From the NCBI GenBank assembly GCA_001442985.1, contig LDYB01000023.1, positions 1 to 64,000 on the forward strand: a DNA stretch of 64,000 bases, read 5' to 3'. This DNA is from Armatimonadetes bacterium DC. GTDB taxonomy: Bacteria > Armatimonadota > Fimbriimonadia > Fimbriimonadales > GBS-DC. Of the stretch, positions 3,001 through 29,013 are shown in pieces (positions within the stretch are counted from its first letter, which is position 1; each line of letters starts with the position of its first letter). A model generated the notes under the pieces. That model made no database searches. It was given only the letters and a program-made list of their open reading frames with translations, and had not been told where the DNA came from. A program made the position numbers and the translations under genes.

Positions 3001-4574
3001 AGTGGCGCATACGGCGTGGTCGACTCCTCTCGATCGCCTTCCACAACCGCGCCAAATGTGTATACCCATCCGCCTTTGGCGCGCATGTTCCCTGGCGCGC
3101 CCCCGCGCAAAGTGAACCTCTCCCCGTTTGAATCTACCGTTGACGACAGCTGAGAAAACACTCCCTGCGCAGGGCGATACACCCAGTTTCCATCCGCTGT
3201 ACGGCGCCCAAGAAAACGCAGAGCTGTTCCATCCACATCGTAAACCAGTACTTCACGCGTGCGTGCTAGGAAGTTGCCCGCTTCCCCCAAATGCTCATCA
3301 TACGGATCACCCAGCGTGTTGCCCCACGCCCACTGTACGGGACCGTCCCGCCAGAACTCACTCAACAGCTTCCCCTCGTTCGCAATCACAACCTGCACAT
3401 TCTCCAGACCATACCTTCCACTATTCATCAAAAAGGTGCCAGGCGCAGGCGAGGTGGTTCTCACCCAGCCCGTATAGGCTGTATCCACTGCAGGGAAGGG
3501 CACGCCCCAGCTGATTTGTCCCGTGGCAGGGCGCATCCCACAAAACTCGGGCGCACACCCCAGCGCGTCGGCTCCATCCACCAGCGAGGTGCTGGACACC
3601 AGATAAATATCCTGCCCTGAGGTGAAGATGTCAAAGAGGCGCTGAATTGAGGCCCTTGCACTCGGTTCTATGCGTGGATGCAGCTCCTTCGCATCCCTAT
3701 ACTGTGGGTGTGACATCCCGCACAGAGTGCCGTTACAACTATACGACTCTATGTCCGAAGACTGGTCTGTGTCTGCCATCAACATTAACTGATAAGGAAT
3801 ATCAACATAGTAATCACTGCCGTCGTGTCGTACTGGTAAAATCCATACCTGCGAAATAGCTAATTTTCCCTGACTGTCCTCTGCCCCGCGCGCAGATACC
3901 TGCACAGACACAGAGTTACCCAGCCCATCTGCGCCATCCAAAAAGCCAGGTCCACCCGACACCTGTGCCGATGCAGAGGCAGTGGCAGATGCCTGCCTGG
4001 TTGTGCAGCCACGCTGTGTGGCAGAGAGGGACGCGCTCGCCAAGACACGGAACACAGTCACTACTCGCACTTCGGATGGCGGCGAACCATTCCCACACCA
4101 CTTTAAGCGGAGCGTAGAACTACCGGTTGCTCTAACTGTGCCATCTGCATACCCTTCATTGTATGGATCACCAGCACGGCAGGAATGGTCCTCAGTAATT
4201 GCCACTACTGCTTCTCGAGCCCCTGTTGAATGATAAAGTGGGCAACACTGATTTGTTGTCCTAACTTGATCGTTAGCACAGTCGTTGGGATAACATATCC
4301 CAGGGTCCAGCGAGCCTGCCAGACATCCAGCAGTGAAAACTATCGGGGTATCAGTGCCACAACTGAAGGTGAAAATCGGTCGCCAGACCCGCTCTATGCT
4401 CAGGGTATCCAGATCCGAAGGAGGCTGAGGGTCAATACACCACTGGGCAAAACTCAGGAATGCAAAGAGACTCAGGACAGCAACCGCACTAACACGCCCC
4501 CCCCCCGCTAAAGCTGTGAGGGCGAAGCGCCAAACGGGTTTCCTCTCCGTTGCCTTGACTGCAACCACTCCCAT
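1..4574 (-). CDS. RHS/YD-repeat secreted protein, 3' end outside window
   Basis: I translated this strand by hand: the frame is open from the ATG at 4574 to the window edge (over 1520 codons), so the C-terminus is missing. GGAGG lies six bases before the ATG and TATAAT at 4600-4595. The N-terminus has a basic stretch and a hydrophobic segment ending ALSFAQ-like, read as a Sec signal peptide. After about 350 residues of cysteine-containing, non-repetitive sequence come YD/RHS repeats (YDLFGRP, YDLRGRL, YDDAGRL, YDVWGNL, YDALGRR, YDSWGNL). These repeats normally form a beta-cage around a variable C-terminal toxin or act as surface/wall proteins. The toxin-bearing end, if any, is not visible. 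Two dockerin-like loops are inserted between YD repeats (about 383-545). A run of ten G occurs near codon 24. No immunity gene is visible because the downstream side lies outside. Confidence 0.9.
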   Translation of the reverse strand, partial: MGVVAVKATERKPVWRFALTALAGGGRVSAVAVLSLFAFLSFAQWCIDPQPPSDLDTLSIERVWRPIFTFSCGTDTPIVFTAGCLAGSLDPGICYPNDCANDQVRTTNQCCPLYHSTGAREAVVAITEDHSCRAGDPYNEGYADGTVRATGSSTLRLKWCGNGSPPSEVRVVTVFRVLASASLSATQRGCTTRQASATASASAQVSGGPGFLDGADGLGNSVSVQVSARGAEDSQGKLAISQVWILPVRHDGSDYYVDIPYQLMLMADTDQSSDIESYSCNGTLCGMSHPQYRDAKELHPRIEPSARASIQRLFDIFTSGQDIYLVSSTSLVDGADALGCAPEFCGMRPATGQISWGVPFPAVDTAYTGWVRTTSPAPGTFLMNSGRYGLENVQVVIANEGKLLSEFWRDGPVQWAWGNTLGDPYDEHLGEAGNFLARTREVLVYDVDGTALRFLGRRTADGNWVYRPAQGVFSQLSSTVDSNGERFTLRGGAPGNMRAKGGWVYTFGAVVEGDREESTTPYAPLVQVSDPLSNTITVTGHRREDRLVVDPISGSSLAIGSLGVTYGKGSHNVTIVDQYGVIRSNLQNQLDPRYYREPLKYEEDWRDGLQEVRIGGAYLQTEGSPEVVARYGWSSFSWREQNILNHASVGRFGGSEGRLSLRRVGNLTPTTYSYEWLDETRFKIETSRGNLQTELIYRIDRETGKFLEATYRRPGLRDASWETHEYRFNRHGQVDRWRLSLDGVLKQEATYQFGLDSDPLAITGITVQYPQDGVTRSWSYGYTERNGETLLQSVQDPTGVAATVEYEDPNYPVLPSALVDGAGHRWEMAYTGPGLLRSFKEPERPAWTLEYYPREHSFQNKLEKIVDPTQREVNVTAYDLFGRPTRVEVRPEAGRLLYQETDWTMLGVPRTVRWSDGTQVDFYWHGSGLRAVRDARRRWVVFDYNLQSELGKAGLLNQIRILGPQPSTVSDEVWYPNMVENLNAGYLFASLSYDLRGRLTRVAGGNGVGVNYTYGLRDQLLSVRYDGDSRAEQFTYSCCGELKSWTKPDGRTVYFDYKAGLLTHIQLGNPNTNPAYTFDYDLAGRLKLAQSNTSWHQWVYEYELPDERRRNTGRLGEERNLLYGAGISYTHTYTYYPSGEVETSTLNLSAPQGVYQRQLRYEYDDAGRLTHIYYNNQLLAYYEYDGAGRLKKQEVYPLGTSAELTTDFTFADEQSVNAVGSVDWRWNGSVLAYFDYGYYPDGTLARARDQLAGQPASEWEWDYDVLGQLAYEKRRGGTGEWQRTDFRYDAGGNLWGGNTPTDWRYLYNQLIYVPRTGQNNNWYYAYTPNGERWRWWTTDRGEYLHGDVNRDGQVDDADLLAVQFALGRTDCPCPEDLSGDGRVDDADMLIVLFNFGQSAGGSLSWEYTYDVWGNLVEAYSPAAGRYRALYDALGRRVGQEIIRETGATRTYSVYEGDTIVAEVDGSGRIVAEYVWGLLGPIARIDLQNPANTRYYVIDGLGHVRALVAPNGVITDRYTYDSWGN
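383..545 (-). other. Dockerin-like EF-hand pair inserted in RHS core
   Basis: The translated segment holds two calcium-loop motifs, [19 protein letters not shown] and DLSGDGRVDDADMLIVLFNFG, joined by a short Cys-Pro-Cys linker. YD repeats occur on both sides. The same motif forms the very C-terminus of four other proteins in the window, so an internal position is unusual. Confidence 0.85.
4497..4506 (-). repeat. G10 homopolymer inside the RHS gene
   Basis: Ten consecutive G on the coding strand (ten C as printed) fall at codons 23-26 of the RHS gene, just before the hydrophobic core of the signal peptide. As written the frame is open. Gain or loss of one G would terminate or misframe the protein early. 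The longest other G/C runs I noticed in the window are seven bases. Confidence 0.9.
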
Positions 4575-4594
4575 CGCGAACCTCCAATGTCCTG

Positions 4595-4600
4595 ATTATA
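4595..4600 (-). promoter_or_regulatory. -10 box of the RHS gene
   Basis: TATAAT on the minus strand, 20 bases before the RHS start codon. No convincing -35 is visible. Confidence 0.55.
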
Positions 4601-4938
4601 CATTATCCATCGCAGCAACCGTCCTCCCACACGCCCCCATGAGCAAAACTTCGTTTTGAGTTCAAATCAGGTTCAGACTGTTGACGACACGACAAACCCT
4701 GCCGCAGGAGCCACCCTTTTTTGACGCCCCTGCCTAAATGACACAACACCCAACCTCGCAGCAGCGCCGCTTCAGCCCCACAGCACACTCATCACAAAGC
4801 GCCACCCGCGCAAAAAGTCATCCCGTGCAGGCACCAGCAGCCTTCCGACTCAGCCCTGTCTGTACCCAAGACCGCTCAGTCTCACCTCCGTTTAGTAATC
4901 GATTTCGCAGGTTTCCGCTGATTTCCTGCTTCCATTGT

Positions 4939-4991
4939 GAAAAGCGCTTCCAGTTTGCAAACGGGTATCCTTTTCTACAGGAGGTTTGCAA
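4939..4991 (+). promoter_or_regulatory. Promoter with two palindromes before acyl-CoA synthetase
   Basis: The 419-base gap between the divergent RHS and synthetase genes has no credible gene. Its right end holds the palindromes AAGCGCTT (4942-4949) and GTTTGCAAAC (4953-4962), a -10 TATCCT (4966-4971) and a Shine-Dalgarno AGGAGG (4979-4984). TTTGCAA recurs at 4985-4991. The palindromes sit where a regulator could block or recruit polymerase; the regulator is unknown. I see nothing recognisable in 4611-4935. Confidence 0.45.
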
Positions 4992-4993
4992 CG

Positions 4994-6940
4994 ATGCAGG
5001 AGTTCCAGCTGCCGATTGCGTGGCGACCCGATGAGGGGGTCATTGCGCAAGCCAACATCACGGCGCAGATGCGACGCTACCAGATTCCCTCTTATGAGGC
5101 GTTCCTGCAACGCTCCATCGAAGACCCCGACTGGTTCTGGCAGGCGTTTTTTGACGACATCGGTTTTTACTGGCACACGCCCTACGAGCGCACAGTAGAC
5201 CTGAGCGAGGGCAAGCCGTTCGCGAAGTGGTTCGTCGGCGGGAAGCTGAACTGGACTTATAACGCGCTGGAGCGCCATGTGCAGGCGGGGCGCGGCGAGG
5301 CGATTGCCCTGCGCTGGGAGGGCGAGGAAGGCACAATCCGCACCTACACCTACGCCCAGCTGCTTGCGGAGGTGAACGCGCTCGCGCGCGGGCTACAGGC
5401 GCTGGGTGTTCAGCCGGGCGACCGCGTGGGGCTGTTTCTGCCCTTCATCCCCGAAACGGCGATTGCGCTGCTGGCGGTCTCGCGAATCGGCGCGATTGCG
5501 CTCCCGCTGTTTTCAGGGTTTGGTCCTGAACCGATTATCTCGCGCATGCAGGACGCTGAGGCGGAGTGGCTCTTTATCGCCGATGGGTTCCCTCGCCGCG
5601 GCAAGACCGTGCCGATGAAGGAGACGGCTCTGACGGCGCTGGAGTCGCTGCCGCAGGTGAAGCGCGTGATTGTGGTGGAGCGCGCCCAGCGTGATATGCG
5701 CATAGACCCCGCCCGCGAAGTCCGCTACACCGACCTCCTTCAGGCTGGGGATTTTGAGGCGCCCGCGTTTGACAGCGAGACGCCCTGCATGATGATTTAC
5801 ACTTCGGGCACGACGGGCAAGCCGAAAGCCGCGCTCCATGTGCACGCGGGCTTTCCCATCAAGGCGGCGCAGGATATGTATCACCTGTTTGACCTCAAGC
5901 CGTCGGACACGATAAGCTGGCTCACCGACATCGGCTGGATGATGGGACCGTGGCTGATTATGGGTGGGCTGATTCTGGGCGCGACGGTGTTTATGTACGA
6001 TGGCTCGCCCGACTACCCCGCCCCCGACCGCGTGTGGGACATGGTGGAGCGGCACGGCATCACGGTGCTGGGCATCACGCCGACGCTGATACGGGCGTTG
6101 ATGCGCGAATCGGCGGAATACGCCGACCGCCACGCGATGCCCACCCTGCGCCTGCTCGGCTCCACCGGCGAGCCGTGGAACCCCGAACCGTGGCTCTGGA
6201 CGCTGGAGCATGTGGGCAAAAACCGCGCACCCATCATCAACTACTCTGGCGGCACGGAGATTTCGGGCGGCATTCTGGGCTGCACGGTGCTACGCCCGCT
6301 CAAGCCGTGCAGTTTCAACACCGTCGTGCCGGGGATTGATGCGGATGTGCTGAACGAGCAGGGCGAACCCGTGCGCGGCGAGATTGGCTTGCTGGTCGTG
6401 CGGAATGTAAACCCTGGCATGACGCGGGGCTTCTGGCGCGACCGCGAGCGCTATCTGGAGACCTACTGGAGCCGCTTTGAGGACATCTGGTATCACGGCG
6501 ACCTGAGCCTGATTGATGAGGAAGGCTTCTGGTACATTCTGGGGCGCGCGGACGACACGCTCAAAATCGCGGGCAAGCGCGTCGGTCCTGCCGAGATTGA
6601 AAGCGTGCTGGTGGAGCATCCTGCGGTGGTGGAGGCGGGCGTGATTGGCGTGCCCGACGAGCTGAAGGGTCAGGCGGCGGTGGCGTTCGTGGTGCTACGC
6701 CCCGGCACGGAGTTCAGCGAATCGCTGGCGGAGGCGTTGCGCAACCTTGTGGCGGAGCGGATGGGCAAGCCGCTGATGCCGAAAGCGGTCTATGCGGTGC
6801 CTGAATTGCCCAAAACGCGCAACGCGAAGATTATGCGCCGCGTGATCCGCGCGGCATATCTGGGCGAGCCGACGGGCGACCTCAGCGCGCTGGAGAACCC
6901 TCACAGCGTGGAGGCAATTCGCGCCCTTGCTACTCATTGA
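4994..6940 (+). CDS. Acetyl-CoA synthetase-like acyl-CoA synthetase (AMP-forming)
   Basis: 648 aa, close to the length of Acs (about 650). The ATG at 4994 is chosen because AGGAGG lies nine bases upstream; an in-frame upstream start has no such site. Visible in order: an ACS-type N-terminal domain, the P-loop TSGTTGKPK, GEPWNPEPW, the core motif YSGGTEISGG, the hinge region YHGDLSLIDEEGFWYILGRADD, and the C-terminal PKTRNAKIMRR with the catalytic lysine. It converts a carboxylate, ATP and CoA to acyl-CoA, AMP and PPi in the cytoplasm. In Acs the core motif is WWQTETG; here the acetate-pocket tryptophan (W414 in the Salmonella enzyme) aligns with glycine, so the substrate is probably larger than acetate. 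The 3' end overlaps convergent nadK by 11 bases. Confidence 0.9.
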   Translation: MQEFQLPIAWRPDEGVIAQANITAQMRRYQIPSYEAFLQRSIEDPDWFWQAFFDDIGFYWHTPYERTVDLSEGKPFAKWFVGGKLNWTYNALERHVQAGRGEAIALRWEGEEGTIRTYTYAQLLAEVNALARGLQALGVQPGDRVGLFLPFIPETAIALLAVSRIGAIALPLFSGFGPEPIISRMQDAEAEWLFIADGFPRRGKTVPMKETALTALESLPQVKRVIVVERAQRDMRIDPAREVRYTDLLQAGDFEAPAFDSETPCMMIYTSGTTGKPKAALHVHAGFPIKAAQDMYHLFDLKPSDTISWLTDIGWMMGPWLIMGGLILGATVFMYDGSPDYPAPDRVWDMVERHGITVLGITPTLIRALMRESAEYADRHAMPTLRLLGSTGEPWNPEPWLWTLEHVGKNRAPIINYSGGTEISGGILGCTVLRPLKPCSFNTVVPGIDADVLNEQGEPVRGEIGLLVVRNVNPGMTRGFWRDRERYLETYWSRFEDIWYHGDLSLIDEEGFWYILGRADDTLKIAGKRVGPAEIESVLVEHPAVVEAGVIGVPDELKGQAAVAFVVLRPGTEFSESLAEALRNLVAERMGKPLMPKAVYAVPELPKTRNAKIMRRVIRAAYLGEPTGDLSALENPHSVEAIRALATH

Positions 6941-13426: not shown

Positions 13427-15670
13427 CTATTCGTAGCCCCGAAGCATCTGTTCCGCCTCGTCGCGGGTAACCAGCACCTGTCGGGGCTTTGCGCCGTCCA
13501 GCGGTCCGACAATCCCGCGCCGTTCCATCAGGTCCAGCAGGCGCGCGGCACGCCCGTAGCCGATTTTGAATCGCCGCTGCAGCATGGAGGTGGACGCCTG
13601 CCCGTGCGAGACCACCAATCGCACCGCCGCGGGATACAGCTCGTCCTCTTCCTCATCATCTTCAAAGTCGCCACCCAGCGCGGTTTCAAATTCGGCAGGG
13701 TTCAGCAGGTACACAGGCGCCTCCTGCGCCCGCCAGAACTCGACGACCGCCTCAATCTCTGGCTCACTGATGTAGCAGCCCTGAATACGCACGGGTTTTG
13801 CGGCGTCTATCGGCAAAAAGAGCATATCGCCCCGCCCCAGCAAACGCTCCGCACCGTTCATGTCCAGAATCGTGCGGCTATCCACCTGACTGGAGACCGC
13901 AAACGCGATTCGGCTGGCAATGTTCGCCTTAATCGTGCCCGTAATCACATCCACGGAGGGGCGCTGGGTCGCCACCACGAGGTGGATGCCCGTTGCCCGC
14001 GCCAGCTGCGCCAGTCGGCAGATGGAGGTCTCAATCTCCGCCGCCGCCTGCATCATCAGGTCTGCCAGCTCGTCAATCACCACCACCACATAAGGCAGGC
14101 GCTCCGATTCGGGGGCGCGTTCGTTGTAGCCCTGAATGTTGCGCACGCCCGCGTTCGCGAACAGGTCGTAGCGCCGATCCATCTCTTTGAGAACCGCGCG
14201 CAGGGCGCCCGCCGCCTGCTTCACATCGCGCACCACAGGGCACATCAGGTGGGGAATGCCGTCAAACAGCGAGAGTTCCACGCGCTTTGGGTCTATCATC
14301 ACGAAGCGCACCTCGCGCGGGGTCGCGCGAAACAGAATACAGGTAATCAGTGAGAGCAGGCACATGCTCTTTCCAGAGTTGGTGGCGCCGCCAATCAGCA
14401 GGTGAGGCAGGCGCGTGAGGTCGGTATACTTGGGCGTGCCTGCGACATCCTTACCGAGCGCGACGGTCAACAGGCTCGGCGCGTTCCAGAACTCGTCGCG
14501 CTCCATCACCTCGCGCAGGCTCACTACCTGCGGCTGGTCGTTGGGCACTTCCACGCCAATCGCGCTCTTGCCGGGGATGGGCGCTTCCACACGCACCGCA
14601 ATCGCCGCAAGCGCCATCGCGAGGTTATCCGCCAGATTCACCACCTTGCTGACCTTGATGCCGGGGTCTAACTGAATCTCATAGCGCGTGACGGTAGGAC
14701 CGTGCGCGACTTCCACCACATTCGCGCCGATGCCAAACTCTTCCAGCGTGCGCTCCAGAATCGCAATCTTTTCCTTAATTTCAGATTGGCTGCGTCGTGG
14801 TGGGGCAGGTGGCTCTTTGAGGAGCGAGAGCGGCGGGAGCGTGTAGTTGCCCTCGCTGGCGGGCGGCGGCGTGGGGATATTCGGCTTGGTGCGAGCAGGC
14901 AGGCTGGGACGACGCTTCTCGCTCGAATCGCCCTCTGCAGATGGCTCGGAGACGGCTGAAGTTTGGGCGGGAGCGCTGGCTTCCGCAGGCGTCGCGCCCG
15001 AAGGCTTCTGCACCACACGCGGTGTGGGGCGTTCGGGTTTGCGCTTGAGAACGGTTGTGGCTTTCTCTGCGGTGTGCGAGGCGACTTCAGCCACCGCGCG
15101 AGTGGCGGTCGCTGTGCCGCGCCAGCCCGTCCACAGCACGCGCCCTATCCCCCGAAAGAGGCTAACCAGCGGGATGTTGAACATCATCAGGGCGCCCACC
15201 AGCCCCAGCGCGCCCAGCACCACGCTCTTCGCTTGACCCAGCCCAATATGAAGGAGATAGCCAATCACTGCGCCGATGTAGCCCCCCGTGCTTTTGAGCG
15301 CGCCCGCGTGGAACCAGTTGCCCGACTGCGATTCGGGCTGCGCCATCCAGCCCAGCAGCACCACATAGAGCAAGACGCCCCCACCAATCACCTCAGGAAG
15401 CGCGAGCTTGCCTGTGCCGAACACCAGCGCGCCCGCCGCCAGCCATAGCACTATCGGCAACAAGTAGGCGCCGTTCCCGAACAGCAGGCGTAGCCCATCG
15501 CTCAAAAACGCCCCCACAACCCCCTTCTGGGGCATGGTCAGGCTCAACAGTACCAGTAAGCCCACCACACCCAGCGCAATCGCAATACGGTCATAAAAGA
15601 GGGGCGACCGCTCTTTAGGCGGTGGCGTGCGTTTCGCTGACGAGCGCCGTTTCTGCGTTTTCGTCGCCAT
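13427..15670 (-). CDS. ftsK: FtsK/SpoIIIE-type DNA translocase
   Basis: 747 aa from the ATG at 15670 (MATKTQKRR), preceded by a weak purine-rich site; longer in-frame starts are unlikely. Four N-terminal membrane helices (about residues 25-170) are followed by a Pro/Ala-rich linker (about 200-290), then the RecA-like motor with Walker A GGATNSGKS and Walker B VVVIDELADLMM. The C-terminal winged-helix gamma domain (ISEPEIE... STSMLQRRFKIGYGRAARLLDLMERRGIVG) reads oriented KOPS-like sites. It pumps DNA through the closing septum and activates dimer resolution. A -10 TACAAT lies at 15724-15719. The linker is short compared with E. coli FtsK, as in SpoIIIE. Confidence 0.95.
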   Translation of the reverse strand: MATKTQKRRSSAKRTPPPKERSPLFYDRIAIALGVVGLLVLLSLTMPQKGVVGAFLSDGLRLLFGNGAYLLPIVLWLAAGALVFGTGKLALPEVIGGGVLLYVVLLGWMAQPESQSGNWFHAGALKSTGGYIGAVIGYLLHIGLGQAKSVVLGALGLVGALMMFNIPLVSLFRGIGRVLWTGWRGTATATRAVAEVASHTAEKATTVLKRKPERPTPRVVQKPSGATPAEASAPAQTSAVSEPSAEGDSSEKRRPSLPARTKPNIPTPPPASEGNYTLPPLSLLKEPPAPPRRSQSEIKEKIAILERTLEEFGIGANVVEVAHGPTVTRYEIQLDPGIKVSKVVNLADNLAMALAAIAVRVEAPIPGKSAIGVEVPNDQPQVVSLREVMERDEFWNAPSLLTVALGKDVAGTPKYTDLTRLPHLLIGGATNSGKSMCLLSLITCILFRATPREVRFVMIDPKRVELSLFDGIPHLMCPVVRDVKQAAGALRAVLKEMDRRYDLFANAGVRNIQGYNERAPESERLPYVVVVIDELADLMMQAAAEIETSICRLAQLARATGIHLVVATQRPSVDVITGTIKANIASRIAFAVSSQVDSRTILDMNGAERLLGRGDMLFLPIDAAKPVRIQGCYISEPEIEAVVEFWRAQEAPVYLLNPAEFETALGGDFEDDEEEDELYPAAVRLVVSHGQASTSMLQRRFKIGYGRAARLLDLMERRGIVGPLDGAKPRQVLVTRDEAEQMLRGYE

Positions 15671-15829
15671 GCTCTCACCCTGCAGATGTTGCGCTTGATT
15701 CGTGCGCCATCCCCACCGATTGTACCCCATAAAACTGACAGGATGCAACTTTGCTCAGTGTGCCAGTGCCGGGGGCTTGATATTTAGCCACGCTAAAGGG
15801 TATATTTATAGAGAATGGAGGACGAGGCT

Positions 15830-16603
15830 ATGGAGAGCGAACTTTCGCAGAGGCGGACGGCGAACCTGCCGCTCCGCCATGGGTTCACTTTGATTGAGCT
15901 GTTGGTCGTGATTGCGATTGTTGCCATTCTGGCGGCAATCCTGTTCCCGGTGTTTGCGCAGGCGCGTGTCAAAGCCCGTCAGACCAGCTGTTCCAGCAAC
16001 CTGCGCCAGCACGGCTTGGCGCTCGCGATGTATGTGCAGGACTGGGAGGCGTTTCCGCCTTTCTCGTATGTTACGCATGGGCAGCCCGTGCGCTGGTATG
16101 ACCATGTGTTCACCTACACGCGCAACGCGGGGATTTTCGTGTGTCCGCAGGTTTCGCGCAAGTGGGATTTTGGCGCGGCGGGACGCAACGCCACCTATGG
16201 CTATAACTACCAGTACCTGGGTCTCTCGCGGGCGAACTGCTGGAATGTGCCTGTTCTGGAAAGCATGATTGAAACCCCCGCGCAGATGATTGCCGTCGGC
16301 GACAATCGCGGCACAGGCACACGCCCCTGCAAAAATGACGACCCCAGCGACCCCGACTTCCTCAACCCTGACTGCCTGTTCAATCACGGCTACGCGATGG
16401 ACCCGCCTGTGTTGCCACCCTGTCGCTACGGTTCGGGACCCAACGCGCCCAGCAGTGCGGGACGCTGGTCGCCGCCCGACCCGCGCCACAACAACGGGGC
16501 GAACTTCGTCTTTGTGGATGGACACCTCCGCTGGAGCCGCGTGGAACCCCTCTATCAGGACAACCGCTGGTGGAACGGGCGGTATCCTGACCCCAATCCG
16601 TAA
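15830..16603 (+). CDS. Pseudopilin with H-X9-DG C-terminal motif
   Basis: 257 aa. A short basic leader ends in the prepilin cleavage site HG^[18 protein letters not shown], the hydrophobic N-terminal helix of type IV pilins and T2SS pseudopilins. The C-terminus has [13 protein letters not shown], the H-X9-DG motif of the large processing-associated prepilin family seen in Planctomycetes, Armatimonadota and relatives. GGAGG lies eight bases before the ATG at 15830, so this start is preferred to 15815; the -10 is TATATT in GGGTATATTT near 15800. It stands alone, far from the pil operon at 30-36 kb; a peptidase PilD is not in the window. Cargo or role unknown. Confidence 0.9.
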
Positions 16604-16651
16604 TCGAGCGCGGGTCGTCCTGGTTCGCACAGGATTAGCCGTTCCGAGTAG

Positions 16652-16670
16652 GGGCGTGGTCACCACGCCC
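16652..16670. repeat. Hairpin GGGCGTGGT-C-ACCACGCCC
   Basis: A perfect 9-bp inverted repeat with a one-base centre lies in the 161-base gap between the pseudopilin and the nuclease/beta-helix gene. There is no T-tract, so it is a poor intrinsic terminator. It could be a REP-like dispersed element; no second copy was noticed in this window. Confidence 0.5.
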
Positions 16671-16721
16671 ATGTACTCGTTTGCACGGGGGAGGGCATAT
16701 CCATCAGCAATGAGTGTGAGG

Positions 16722-16727
16722 TATACT
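16722..16727 (+). promoter_or_regulatory. -10 box of nuclease/beta-helix gene
   Basis: TATACT preceded by GAGG, 37 bases before the start codon of the large accessory gene. GGGAG lies seven bases before the ATG. No -35 is obvious. Confidence 0.5.
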
Positions 16728-16764
16728 ATTAGCAAAGACCTCTCTGGAATGTGGGAGACGGGCA

Positions 16765-19700
16765 ATGAGTGGTGAGGAACTACTGCGGAGATTCAGGCAC
16801 TACCCGTTTGCGCGGGAGGTTTACAACTCCTCCTGCGTTGTGTGGGCAAATACAGCATCTCGTTTCGATTTCGTTCGCATCCCCGAGCCTCACGATGCAG
16901 ATTCAGAGCCAGAAGAAGTCGATGAGGTAACAGCAGAACTCATCCTTGTAAAATCATGGGCAAGATCACTCTCTCTAGAGCAAGCACTTTCTGCCCGCGC
17001 TGCAGAACGCGCTTGCAAACGGTTTTTTGAGGGACTGGGCTACCAGGTACAGGACATTTCCATCACACAGCCATTAGAGCTGTATAACCTCACTATTCCG
17101 GGAATCGAAATCGGCCCATGGCGAAAGTACGACATTAGAGCCACGAATACGGCAGGCGAGACCTTATGCATTGATGTCAAAAGCGCTCGTCAGAATCCGC
17201 ATGGTGTCTACTCTAATTTCTTCATAAAACCTAAATATGAAAATTTAAAGCGGATTGGTTTTTTGAGGTATTATTTTGCCGTTCTGATGCCTCAATCTAT
17301 AGCTGATCGTCCCAATCCTGGAGATAGTCAAGCAATCATTTTAGGAATGACATCAAGATCGTCTATACAAAGCTTGCAAGAATATCTTAGACATGGAGAT
17401 GCCCCTCTCAGGGTTGATTTTAAAAGACCGGACAGAGATCTGGGGGATTACATGCCACCCTATCTTTTTGATTATCCCCATGAGTTTTACAGCTCCCAAC
17501 ATGAGGTTTGCACCTATATCCGTGATTTGTCGCCGGAGGGAATCTCCCAGCTAATCCACTTGCATGGTGATCCCATCCTGCCCCTCCTTGTAGCCAGCGG
17601 CGTCGAGTTTCCACCTGAATTCCTCAACGCCTTGAGCGATTGGGAGAGAGAATTTTTGGACGGGCTTCGCGAATTGGCTGCTTCAAACCGCCTCTCGCGC
17701 CCCTTCCTCTTCTTCTACCTGTTAAAGTTTTTTGTGCTTACCGTGGTGGGGAAGGTCCCGGAAAATCATCCCACTCGCTGGCTTCGCTGGATTTATGGCA
17801 CGGAAAGCCCAACAGACATTCAGAAACACCCTCCTGGGCTGTACGACCCCCTGGAAACCGTGTGGGATTTAGTTCGGTCCTTAGGCGTGCTGTACAGCAA
17901 CATCAGGAAAGGCTCCCTCTCCTATAGGTCATTCGAATTTTGTGGTCCGGGACTTTTGCGGGGTAGAACCGAGAATAGGCAAACCCATACTTTGCTTGCA
18001 TATTGTGGAGGATGCGGTAAGTTCCCTCTGGTATGGGGTCGGGAGGAAACCTGTGCTGCTTGCGGGTATCTGGTATGCAACAAATCAGATTGCCACACCT
18101 GTAAACCGCAGAGTCCCCACCACTCCTTTCGGAATGGAACCAGTCCTGCGCATAGGGTACAGACGCTTCACGAAATAAAAAGCGAGGTGAACAAAGATGG
18201 TGTCTTGATGCGCCTGAACACGAAGGCGACAATCAGGAACCTCTCTTTGGAGCACAATGGGAAGATATGCAAGTTCACGATCAAATTCCCGAAGACGAGC
18301 TCCCAGCACACTCTGGAGATAGAAAGCGAGACTGAGAACCTTCCAAAGACCGAGTCCGCTAACTTCGCGGAGATGAACGCTCGCTATCGGTACTGGATAG
18401 AGCGCGACAGAGAGTACCCGATCATAGCCACTGTCTTCATTGAAGCTGATTTTCAGATTCAGGCGCTGCATGCCATTGATCTGCCAGGCATTGAGGTGGA
18501 GTGGTTTTGTTCCATTGGCAGCAAGATACATCAGGAAGTGGTTTGCGGAATGAGCCATATTCTACCCACTCGAATATCCCAGCCCATTGAGATCGTACAG
18601 GCCATCAGAAGCGCACAGCCAAACGAGATTATTCTGATTCCTGAAGGTGAGCATGTTATTGAACATACCGTAACCATAGATAAACCGCTCCTGCTGATAG
18701 GGGCAGGTGCAGGGAAAACCGTTCTCATCTGCAGGGACGCGGTGGGTATTCAGGTGAGTCTACCCTCGGATAGGGTACTGGCTATGCATGGACTGACGAT
18801 TGACTGTCAGGGGCAATCCGAGTGCGCCCTCAGTGTAGAAAGCGGGACAGTCCGTCTGGCGTGCTGTCATATACGAGGGGCGAGCAGGTATGGCACCCAG
18901 GTCTCCGGAGAGGCTACGCTTATAGCAGAGGATTGTTGTTATGAGGATCACGGGGCTTGCGGGATTGCGCTTCAGGATTCCTCTTCTGGCTCGGTCAAGC
19001 AAAGCAACTTCCGAAACAACCATACAGGTATTTGCGCTCAGGATTGCTCGCGTCTTACTATGAGCAATAGCAGTTTCGTCGCGAATACAGAGTTGGGAAT
19101 TGAGCTTGCGGGGAGCGCAAAGGGCGAAGTAGAAGAGAGCCTCTTCGCAGAAAACATCGGCAGTGGTATTCGTGCTGGGGAACAGTCCACCCTCACCGCC
19201 CGCAACAACACCTGCGAGGGGAACACATACTCAGGCATAGCGCTCTTTGGCAGTGCGCGGGGCATACTGGAAGGCAACACCTGCAAAGGAAACGGCTCTC
19301 ACGGGATTTATGCTCAAGACCAAGCTCGCCTCACCGCCCGCAACAACACCTGCGAGGGGAACACATACTCAGGCATAGCGCTCTTTGGCAACGCGCGGGG
19401 CACGCTGGAAGCCAACACCTGCAAAGGAAACGGCTATCACGGGATTTACGCTCAAGACCAAGCTCACCTCACCGCCCGCAACAACACCTGCGAGGGGAAC
19501 TCTCAAGCTGGCATAGCGCTCTTTGGCAGTGCGCAGGGCACGCTGGAAGGCAACACCTGCAAAGGAAACGGCTCTCACGGGATTGCAGGCAACGAGCAGT
19601 CCGCCCTCACTGCTCGCAACAACACCTGCGAAGGGAATAGGGATGGTGGGATTTCGCTCTTTGGCAGTGCGCAGGGCACACTGGAAGGCAACACCTGCAA

Positions 19701-19944
19701 GGAAAACGGCTCTCACGGGATTTACGCTCAAGACCAAGCTCACCTCACTGCTCGCAACAACACCTGCGAGGGGAACGAGGACTGTGGTATCTGGCTTTCT
19801 GACAATGTGCAGGGTGAGGTGAGCGGGAATCGGTGTGTAGGAAATCAATACGGCATCTATGTGCGAGACAAAACCGTGAAGGCTCGCCTGAATAGCAACT
19901 TTTGCAGTGGGAACACAGCCCAAGACATCTACGATGTGCGCTAA
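16765..19944 (+). CDS. PD-(D/E)xK-like nuclease / Cys-cluster / right-handed beta-helix fusion
   Basis: 1059 aa, no signal peptide, so probably cytoplasmic. Residues about 55-210 look like an Mrr/DUF3883-type restriction fold: E81 in the helix AAERACKRFFEGLGYQV, D123 in KYDIRA, and D137/K139 in LCIDVKSAR, the E...D-x13-DxK arrangement of PD-(D/E)xK enzymes. About 230-400 is helical and unrecognised. A cysteine cluster follows at C414, C417, C430, C433, C438, C443 and C446, likely binding zinc. About 470-600 is beta-rich. From about 605 (PIEIVQAIRSAQPNEIILIP) to the end is a right-handed parallel beta-helix of 22-24-residue coils, the last part made of near-identical 46-residue double coils. 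The region is A+T-rich (16 G+C of 60 at 17221-17280) and next to a tRNA, suggesting transfer. Function unknown; defence against foreign DNA is a guess. Confidence 0.85.
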   Translation: MSGEELLRRFRHYPFAREVYNSSCVVWANTASRFDFVRIPEPHDADSEPEEVDEVTAELILVKSWARSLSLEQALSARAAERACKRFFEGLGYQVQDISITQPLELYNLTIPGIEIGPWRKYDIRATNTAGETLCIDVKSARQNPHGVYSNFFIKPKYENLKRIGFLRYYFAVLMPQSIADRPNPGDSQAIILGMTSRSSIQSLQEYLRHGDAPLRVDFKRPDRDLGDYMPPYLFDYPHEFYSSQHEVCTYIRDLSPEGISQLIHLHGDPILPLLVASGVEFPPEFLNALSDWEREFLDGLRELAASNRLSRPFLFFYLLKFFVLTVVGKVPENHPTRWLRWIYGTESPTDIQKHPPGLYDPLETVWDLVRSLGVLYSNIRKGSLSYRSFEFCGPGLLRGRTENRQTHTLLAYCGGCGKFPLVWGREETCAACGYLVCNKSDCHTCKPQSPHHSFRNGTSPAHRVQTLHEIKSEVNKDGVLMRLNTKATIRNLSLEHNGKICKFTIKFPKTSSQHTLEIESETENLPKTESANFAEMNARYRYWIERDREYPIIATVFIEADFQIQALHAIDLPGIEVEWFCSIGSKIHQEVVCGMSHILPTRISQPIEIVQAIRSAQPNEIILIPEGEHVIEHTVTIDKPLLLIGAGAGKTVLICRDAVGIQVSLPSDRVLAMHGLTIDCQGQSECALSVESGTVRLACCHIRGASRYGTQVSGEATLIAEDCCYEDHGACGIALQDSSSGSVKQSNFRNNHTGICAQDCSRLTMSNSSFVANTELGIELAGSAKGEVEESLFAENIGSGIRAGEQSTLTARNNTCEGNTYSGIALFGSARGILEGNTCKGNGSHGIYAQDQARLTARNNTCEGNTYSGIALFGNARGTLEANTCKGNGYHGIYAQDQAHLTARNNTCEGNSQAGIALFGSAQGTLEGNTCKGNGSHGIAGNEQSALTARNNTCEGNRDGGISLFGSAQGTLEGNTCKENGSHGIYAQDQAHLTARNNTCEGNEDCGIWLSDNVQGEVSGNRCVGNQYGIYVRDKTVKARLNSNFCSGNTAQDIYDVR
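19192..19800 (+). repeat. 138-bp in-frame tandem repeats in the beta-helix
   Basis: Units start at 19192, 19330, 19468, 19606 and 19744 (exact 138-base spacing), each encoding 46 residues beginning LTARNNTCEGN and containing LEGNTCKGNG; the last is partial. Units 1 and 2 differ at only about eight bases by eye, so duplication or gene conversion is recent. Each unit corresponds to two beta-helix coils. Confidence 0.92.
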
Positions 19945-19952
19945 TCCACCCC

Positions 19953-19982
19953 TTGCAACAACGCTGTGGGGTCGGGTATAAT
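19953..19982 (+). promoter_or_regulatory. Promoter of tRNA-Thr
   Basis: TTGCAA (19953-19958), an 18-base spacer and TATAAT (19977-19982), ending 10 bases before the tRNA. This is the most complete -35/-10 pair I found in the window. Confidence 0.7.
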
Positions 19983-19992
19983 AACCCCCAGA

Positions 19993-20067
<75 letters not shown>

Positions 20068-20068
20068 G

Positions 20069-21085
20069 TTAGCCCATCGCCCGCTTGAAAAGCCACAGCG
20101 CCACCACCGCCATCGCCAGCGCAATCCCGTACAATAGCAGCACGGTCTGACGCTGGGTCAAGCCGCGCGCCAGCAGCTGATGGTGGATGTGGCGCTTGTC
20201 GGGCTTGTGAATGGGCGCGCCGCTCAGCAGCCGCCGAACCACCACATTCACCGCGTCCAGCAACGGCAAGCCGAACACCAGCAGGGGCACGAAAATCGCG
20301 AACGCGGTCGCCGTTTTGAACGCGCCAATCACCGATAGCCCCGCCAGCACAAAGCCCAGAAACTGCGCGCCGCCCGTGCCCATAAAAATCCGCGCCGGGT
20401 TGAAGTTATAGCGCAAAAACCCGCCAGCCGCGCCCGCCACCGCCGCCGCCGTAATCGCAATCAGCCAGTTGGGATAGGGCTGGTCTAAAATATTCGCCGC
20501 CTGAAGCGCCATCAGCGCCAGCGTCAGCGCCGCAATCGCGCTCACGCCCGCCGCCAAGCCGTCCAGCCCGTCAATCGTGTCCATCGTTTTGCTGATGACG
20601 AACATCCACAGCGCAGTGAGCGGAATCGTCCACGCGCCCAGCGACACCCAGCGCGCGTCTCGGAAGTTACCCCCAATCGGCGCGGCGAAGCCCTCAATCT
20701 GCACGCCGAACAGCTGCACCAGCAACCCCGCCAGCAACAACACCCCCGCCTGAAGCACCGCCGAAAAACCCTTCAAATCGTCCAGCATGCCTGCCGCCAG
20801 CACCAGCGTGCCCACCAGCAACAGCCCCACGAACGGCACCACCCGCTCCCAGAACACGCCATCGTTGGGCGCCAGCAGGTACAGTCGGAACATCCCCGCC
20901 AGCGTCGCCACCACCACCCCCAGATAGATGGCTAACCCGCCCCAGCGCGGTATCGGCTCGGTGTGAACCCGCCGCGCGTCAGGAATGTCCAGCACCCCAA
21001 ACCGTATCGCCAGCGCCCGCACCCAGGGCGTCAGCAGATAGGTCGTCGCCAGCGCAATCAGAAACACAACCGTAATCGTTTTCAT
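20069..21085 (-). CDS. Polyprenyl-phosphate HexNAc-1-P transferase (WecA/TagO/MraY family)
   Basis: 338 aa with about ten membrane helices. Conserved cytoplasmic motifs are visible: MLDDLKG (Mg-binding DD), DTIDGLDGLAAG, NFNPARIFMGTGG and KRHIHHQLL, plus the N-terminal DARRVHTEPIPRWGG. The HIHH pattern and substrate loop favour the WecA/TagO subgroup over MraY. It transfers GlcNAc- or similar sugar-1-phosphate from a UDP-sugar to undecaprenyl phosphate, starting a surface polysaccharide. Its ATG overlaps the dCMP deaminase stop by four bases (ATGA), so it is the third gene of a BMP-deaminase-transferase operon. Confidence 0.93.
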   Translation of the reverse strand: MKTITVVFLIALATTYLLTPWVRALAIRFGVLDIPDARRVHTEPIPRWGGLAIYLGVVVATLAGMFRLYLLAPNDGVFWERVVPFVGLLLVGTLVLAAGMLDDLKGFSAVLQAGVLLLAGLLVQLFGVQIEGFAAPIGGNFRDARWVSLGAWTIPLTALWMFVISKTMDTIDGLDGLAAGVSAIAALTLALMALQAANILDQPYPNWLIAITAAAVAGAAGGFLRYNFNPARIFMGTGGAQFLGFVLAGLSVIGAFKTATAFAIFVPLLVFGLPLLDAVNVVVRRLLSGAPIHKPDKRHIHHQLLARGLTQRQTVLLLYGIALAMAVVALWLFKRAMG

Positions 21086-28380: not shown

Positions 28381-28433
28381 AGCTCTGTCAGCAAATCTTT
28401 CTGGAGGAACGGTGTTGAGGTATACTGTTGCTG

Positions 28434-28673
28434 ATGGAACCTGACGAGTTGCTCAGCCGCATCACGCGCGACCCGAATATCTGTCACGGGAAGCCCGTCA
28501 TCCGGGGGCTGCGCTATCCTGTGGCAACGGTACTGGAGTGGCTTGCCAGCGGCATGACCCCCGAAGATATCCTGCGTGACTATCCCGACCTTGAGCGTGA
28601 GGATTTGCAGGCAGCACTCCTCTACGCGGCACGCCTGACTGAAGTTAAGCGGGTGGAACTGTTTTCCCGATGA
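28434..28673 (+). CDS. DUF433 antitoxin-like protein
   Basis: 79 aa. ITRDPNICHGKPVIRGLRYPVATVLEWLASGMTPEDILRDYPDL is the DUF433 signature, a helix-turn-helix protein of the VapB45 type. It normally neutralises and autoregulates with an adjacent DUF5615 PIN-like toxin. TATACT at 28421-28426 lies seven bases before ATG 28434, so this start is preferred over TTG 28428 and the message is probably leaderless. It overlaps the toxin reading frame by ATGA. The antitoxin appears intact while the toxin is broken. Confidence 0.93.
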   Translation: MEPDELLSRITRDPNICHGKPVIRGLRYPVATVLEWLASGMTPEDILRDYPDLEREDLQAALLYAARLTEVKRVELFSR

Positions 28674-29013
28674 GATGGCTCGTGGATGCGCAGCTACCAA
28701 TGCGACTGGTGACTTACCTGAGACAACAAGGGGTGGAGGCGCTTCACACCACCGAGATGCCTCTGGGTAACCGCACACCTGACGACATGTATCAGTTCTC
28801 CAAGAGTATGTGGTGGTGACCAAAGATAGCGACTTTATAGACAACCTGCTCCTCCACGGGAATGTTTATAAACTACTCTTAGTTAGCACAGGCAATATCA
28901 CAAATAATGAGTTGATACATCTGTTTAGCACTCATCTGCATATGATGATTGATGCTTTATCAGGAGCGAGGTTTGTGGAACTGACTCGCGTGGGTCTGGT
29001 GGTTCACTGGTAG
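28670..29013 (+). pseudogene. DUF5615 PIN-like toxin, frameshifted
   Basis: The frame opens MRWLVDAQLPMRLVTYLRQQGVEALHTTEMPLGNRTPDDMYQFSK, the N-terminal half of DUF5615 (VapC45-like) nucleases with the first catalytic Asp. It hits TGA at 28817-28819. The other half, EYVVVTKDSDFIDNLLLHG..., with the conserved TKDSDF, continues in another frame to 29013. Joining them needs a one-base insertion (or two-base deletion) near 28800-28808. The toxin is therefore probably inactive, unless this is a sequencing error. Confidence 0.85.

Follow-up and report, generated by a model that had tools for sequence, protein, structure and literature searches.

A nuclease-like core with a cysteine cluster, joined to a long beta-helix in Armatimonadetes bacterium DC, belongs to a rare family often found near defence genes

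Right-handed beta-helix proteins are usually exported enzymes or tail spikes, and the question raised by the present locus is what such a helix does at the end of a protein that begins with a nuclease-like domain. The gene lies in the window analysed here, a stretch of 64,000 nucleotides of contig LDYB01000023.1 from Armatimonadetes bacterium DC, and consists of a single uninterrupted frame (16765-19944, plus strand) that encodes 1059 amino acids; no second copy was found in its own genome. The parts of the gene are as follows.

16765..19944, plus strand: whole gene, comprising a nuclease-like core, a cysteine cluster, a linker and a beta-helix; 1059 codons plus stop
16765..16959, plus strand: residues 1-65, an N-terminal stretch with no detectable relatives, which replaces the longer N-terminal parts of related proteins
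16960..17406, plus strand: residues 66-214, a PD-(D/E)xK-like core of the NOV_C/DUF3883 type with E81, D97, D123 and D137-V-K139, as judged by conservation in 14 sequences and by an hhalign match to NOV_C
17407..18003, plus strand: residues 215-413, a mainly helical middle part that is kept in the family
18004..18102, plus strand: residues 414-446, a seven-cysteine cluster (CGGC..C..CG.L.C....C..C), a probable zinc-binding knuckle
18103..18576, plus strand: residues 447-604, a linker or extra domain with no match in 291 genomes or in plasmids
18577..19941, plus strand: residues 605-1059, a right-handed parallel beta-helix of about 20 rungs of 23 residues, containing 22 cysteines
19191..19776, plus strand: 138-bp tandem duplications within the helix, each spanning two rungs, in 4.2 copies with 86% matches and with a hypervariable triplet after EGN

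An earlier note, made from the sequence of the window, had described the frame of 1059 codons, the residues E81, D123, D137 and K139, seven cysteines between 414 and 446, a beta-helix from about residue 605 to the end and the absence of a signal peptide. All of these were borne out: the four residues are E, D, D and K, the cysteines are located at 414, 417, 430, 433, 438, 443 and 446, no hydrophobic N-terminus was seen in the window protein, and the C-terminal part matches Pfam Beta_helix (PF13229) with an E value of 4.4e-80 (267 bits against a cut-off of 25.9) and TIGR03804 with 2.4e-43 and 11 repeats.

A tblastn search with residues 1-598 identified six relatives on plasmids, from Synechocystis (6e-20), Variovorax (1e-15), Roseomonas (two), Microvirga and Sinorhizobium, and a scan of genomes with a three-sequence alignment identified eight more, in Solimonas, Lysobacter, Corallococcus and Rhizobacter, so that 14 relatives were found on Proteobacterial, Myxococcal and Synechocystis replicons. 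Single-sequence pattern scans of genomes and viral contigs found no relatives, and no member was found in phages or viral contigs, including by an alignment scan of the latter. Among 291 genomes belonging to the phylum of the window, one has a member of the family, and the window gene is the sole carrier of the fusion there; among 369 genomes of the class of a Solimonas carrier, one has a member. The nuclease-cysteine family, which is unclassified, is rare and patchy. None of the relatives has a beta-helix, and the whole domain order was found in no homologue in the genome, plasmid and viral scans. Because the fusion is known so far as a single gene, the earlier term "new system" is too strong for it, and the more secure and broader finding is an unclassified nuclease-cysteine family in defence neighbourhoods.

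The family was characterized with an alignment of 14 sequences, namely the window protein and 13 relatives that are 22-28% identical to it; the Synechocystis copy, which is split over two ORFs, was excluded. D123, D137, K139 and Cys 414, 417, 430, 433 and 438 are invariant, and E81, C443 and C446 are nearly so (at least 90%), a conservation that is not due to chance at this level of identity. In the numbering of the aligned segment, the invariant residues of the core are D42, Q47, W64, D68 and D82-V83-K84 (D97, Q102, W119, D123 and D137-K139 of the window protein), and those of the cluster are C359-G-G-C362, C375, C378-G, L381 and C383, while the helix glutamate (in ARAAE) and the equivalents of C386 and C389 are near-invariant. 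The glutamate, aspartate and (D/E)xK of the PD-(D/E)xK superfamily are therefore present in order, as E81, D123 and D137-V-K139.

The layout had been called Mrr/DUF3883-like, and the DUF3883 part of this assignment stood whereas the direct relationship to Mrr did not. In hhalign comparisons with a NOV_C/DUF3883 profile made from 29 sequences, the family core profile gave a probability of 69% (P 4.5e-5) and the window sequence alone 83% (P 9e-6). The alignment pairs DISI...YDIRATN-TAGETLCIDVK with DVST...GYDI.S..GxxRxIEVK and places D123 and D137-x-K139 in register with GYDI and IEVK of NOV_C, and E81 is offset from the NOV_C glutamate by one helical turn. The top score among 100 column shuffles was 18.9, against 36.1 for the real comparison, and the reversed profile scored 10.4 (probability 0.1%). 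Against Mrr (Mrr_cat, PF04471), the family profile gave a probability of 0.9%, indicating no kinship, and one of 50 shuffled profiles reached 30.8, which illustrates the noise in such scores. Searches at a threshold as loose as E 10 found no model in Pfam, NCBIfam or PADLOC for the nuclease and cysteine parts of the window protein, in line with the earlier note, which knew of no described family with this domain order; nor did any relative reach the Pfam cut-off or match PADLOC. Since neither the window protein nor any relative reached the Pfam gathering score of NOV_C/DUF3883 (PF13020), the core is regarded as NOV_C-like and is not filed as a NOV_C member. DUF3883 is known as a novel restriction endonuclease domain in restriction-modification operons, fused to an SNF2 helicase (PMC3710099). 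The window family resembles it in a colinear motif made up of a helix, a DVS-like turn, an aspartate before a strand and (D/E)xK, but the window core has DxK rather than ExK, and the family has a C-terminal cysteine cluster without a helicase fusion. The same genome also encodes, on its contig C20, a separate frame of 1114 codons with a strong NOV_C/DUF3883 domain (2.6e-26).

An AlphaFold model of residues 1-480 of the window protein, built with nine sequences, was poor (pLDDT 52.5); its helix at 71-90 and strands at 124-127 and 133-137 follow an order that agrees with a restriction-like alpha/beta fold, but a Foldseek search with this model found no significant nuclease match and no meaningful match in the PDB. 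The model of a Solimonas relative (L010) was better (pLDDT 75.6). Its clear fold matches were restricted to cold-shock/OB folds, which its N-terminus resembles (CRHSP-24 and AtGRP2, Foldseek probability 1.00), and it weakly matched the influenza PA endonuclease, a PD-(D/E)xK enzyme (probability 0.57, E 0.58). No identifiable nuclease was found by Foldseek against viral structures, and a PDB sequence search with the family profile returned only noise.

All relatives have the cysteine cluster close to their C-terminus, and the parts surrounding the core differ. Members from Solimonas, Lysobacter, Corallococcus and Variovorax form a clade that starts with a KGFGFA...FLN segment, which in the L010 model is the part that matches cold-shock/OB domains and is followed by helical repeats, alphaproteobacterial members have a different N-terminal part, and the window protein has about 65 residues before the core, with the linker (447-604) and the helix added after it. 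Judging from the 15 sequences, the core seems to act as a module able to take various partners at its ends. The window protein sits on a long branch of the family tree, and its position there is not reliable. By tblastn its closest relative is that of Synechocystis (L003 9797-11175), which is divided into two ORFs and may be a decaying copy; the plasmid concerned also bears DUF3883, DUF1156 and csx2 genes.

Defence genes lie within 10 kb of at least 7 of the 14 relatives, and a recognized defence neighbour is absent at about six of the 14 loci. The neighbours identified within this distance are listed below.

Solimonas locus L010: DpdB, DpdD, DpdJ and DpdK
Locus L014: MzaC, MzaD and MzaE
Sinorhizobium locus L008: GajA and UvrD, with the start of GajA 135 bp downstream
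Locus L007: SspH and a phosphorothioation methyltransferase
Solimonas locus L015: an Mrr-nSTAND3 protein (PDC-S73) and SIR2
Locus L017: an NsnA-like DUF262 protein
Locus L005: two C5-methyltransferases, Vsr, HEPN, DUF262 and a helicase

The 91 ORFs near eight genome members matched 45 PADLOC families (E 1e-15), with Dpd, Mza and PDC-S73 proteins at the head of the list, whereas 106 control ORFs from elsewhere in the same genomes matched 28. The control matches were mostly of helicase type, with SNF2-helicase-like models in front, each found next to a single member, and included one SduA match; the enrichment was judged by eye against this small control and is not a measured rate. The flanks in the two Solimonas genomes are nearly identical (88-98%; 3038-5527 and 11779-13203 in L010, 2024-4591 and 13984-15408 in L015), and between them lie Dpd genes in one and a STAND-REase with SIR2 in the other, each together with a family member. 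The same flanks with different cargo suggest an integration hotspot, likely a defence island. The earlier note had proposed to look for homologues of the same domain order beside known defence genes; no homologue of that order was found, and the link to defence genes is seen for the nuclease-cysteine core of the relatives.

The beta-helix grew through recent 138-bp duplications of a two-rung unit: TRF reports 4.2 copies with 86% matches, and the DNA identity of neighbouring units reaches 94%. All five type-A rungs open with the same eleven residues (LTARNNTCEGN), after which comes a variable triplet (TYS, TYS, SQA, RDG, EDC), and the amino-acid changes between copies cluster in one turn and at the rung end, a pattern that hints at, rather than proves, a recognition surface. 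The helix contains 22 cysteines in 455 residues, against 2-3 in each of six beta-helices from the same genome and Deinococcus that appear to be exported or membrane-anchored, and this richness speaks for a reducing, cytoplasmic setting; we infer that the protein is intracellular. Its most hydrophobic 19-residue stretch is borderline (1.8, at 314-332), and the strongest hydrophobic windows of the relatives fall outside the equivalent region. No phage match to the helix was found, and a tail-spike origin was rejected for that reason; a secreted toxin of the CdiA/TPS type was rejected as well, the order being reversed (nuclease first, helix last) and a signal peptide absent. The window protein shares its repeats with right-handed beta-helix proteins such as NosD (PF13229, TIGR03804) and differs from them in that its helix is rich in cysteine, lacks a signal and follows a nuclease-like core. 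Kinase-SH3-beta-helix proteins encoded on Deinococcus plasmids (L024-L027) likewise combine an N-terminal domain of catalytic type with a C-terminal beta-helix, but there the domain is a kinase, a hydrophobic segment lies between it and the SH3 domain and helix, and the helix has 2 cysteines. The D. radiodurans gene (L024) stands downstream of PP2C phosphatase and FHA genes, and at the other loci OmpA or DUF2336 genes are located upstream; these loci are candidates for a membrane signalling cassette.

In its own genome, the gene stands alone among housekeeping genes. PADLOC found no defence neighbour within the window, its matches to the 48 other ORFs scanned fitting housekeeping ATPases of the FtsK, SMC and RuvB types. 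The A+T-rich composition of the earlier note is better described as a GC content low for this genome (0.39-0.61), and GC3 is about 0.55 in the gene against 0.76-0.83 in its neighbours, which fits a foreign origin. The adjacent tRNA had been cited as support for an accessory origin, a point that found no support here. This tRNA-Thr(CGT), at 19993-20067, has a promoter-like site of its own at 19953-19982 and is absent from the corresponding place in the related genomes examined; no copy of its 3' end was found flanking the gene. Integration at the tRNA was consequently rejected, and the tRNA is probably an incidental neighbour. The locus is flanked by FtsK and WecA genes (13427 to 21085), which are not adjacent in the relatives examined, indicating a rearranged junction rather than a clean insertion. 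Elsewhere in the window (28428-28880), an ORF that we take to be a DUF433-type antitoxin-like gene is followed by a presumably DUF5615-like (PIN-like) frame; the latter stops early in frame 0 and continues in frame 2, so that the second gene looks broken.

The reading favoured here, at a probability of about one half, is that the protein is a cytoplasmic NOV_C-like defence nuclease with a zinc-binding segment, targeted or regulated by the beta-helix; activity, zinc binding, location, sensing and the role in defence are each putative. The core would probably be a metal-dependent DNA-cutting domain, with D123 and D137 binding metal and acting alongside K139 and the helix glutamate E81, and the zinc-binding cluster after the helical part would probably help to hold DNA or to fold the protein. 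Elsewhere in the family the core carries different end modules, an N-terminal cold-shock/OB domain with helical repeats being one example; in this genome its C-terminus has gained the long beta-helix, built by recent two-rung duplications. The earlier note had seen the helix as a possible sensor or scaffold. In the present reading it would serve as a recognition or regulatory module that binds a phage or plasmid product through the ridge of varying turns, or alternatively it may hold the nuclease off until such a product is bound; the nuclease would then cut invading or cellular DNA. The narrower proposal that target recognition resides in a modular beta-helix is a rather long shot; here the 46-residue repeats would be constant apart mainly from the turn triplet, and repeat duplication and triplet change would retune a ridge that recognizes phage components.

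The chief rival keeps the same defence-linked nuclease-cysteine family and takes the helix as a passive scaffold, an oligomerization stalk or a neutral fusion without sensing. It is unlikely, and it draws on the absence of the helix from all relatives, on the fusion occurring in one genome and on the ability of repeat duplications to arise neutrally; however, no stop codon has interrupted the frame across about 20 rungs, and the type-A changes gather in one turn and the rung end behind eleven invariant residues. Improbable to a greater degree is a cellular DNA-repair or quality-control nuclease, for which proximity to defence genes would reflect accessory regions in general. The solitary position of the window gene, the cold-shock/OB domain of relatives, which suits the handling of single-stranded DNA or RNA, and the loci without a recognized defence neighbour, seen against a small background control, would fit such a role, whereas the rare and patchy distribution, the foreign composition and the recurrent pairing with dedicated defence systems argue against it.

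A helix located outside the cell after a membrane pass near 313-331, as is likely for the Deinococcus proteins with their hydrophobic segment before a similar helix, is very unlikely. The borderline stretch is compatible with it, but the family as a whole has a helix at this place (LFVYAMAL / WLYLFILHSWL among the relatives), which in no relative is the most hydrophobic part, and the stretch precedes the conserved cysteine cluster in a protein whose helix is itself cysteine-rich. That two genes were fused by an assembly or sequencing artefact, as the lack of the fusion in a second genome might suggest, is scarcely credible, given that the frame is open throughout, that the composition looks foreign on either side of the junction and that no long repeat lies at the junction (residues 447-604).

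A comparison may be drawn with Shedu, in which autoinhibition of the nuclease is relieved by DNA-end sensing via an N-terminal clamp and the diversity of the N-terminal domains is proposed to determine specificity (PMC12904381). Like Shedu (SduA, DUF4263), the window family would be a single-gene PD-(D/E)xK-type nuclease with variable attached domains, and unlike Shedu it has a cysteine cluster and, in the window protein, its extra module at the C-terminus; the SduA/DUF4263 profile gave no match in Pfam or PADLOC, and the likeness is one of analogy rather than membership. The family is a single-gene candidate defence system: unclassified and nuclease-like, it recurs beside Dpd, Mza, Gabija and Ssp/Dnd genes, with modules exchanged at its ends. 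The fusion suggests that a cytoplasmic beta-helix might act as the sensor of a nuclease, for which the literature searched offered no example, and a triplet-tuned ridge, if true, would be a recognition principle without description for defence nucleases in that literature.
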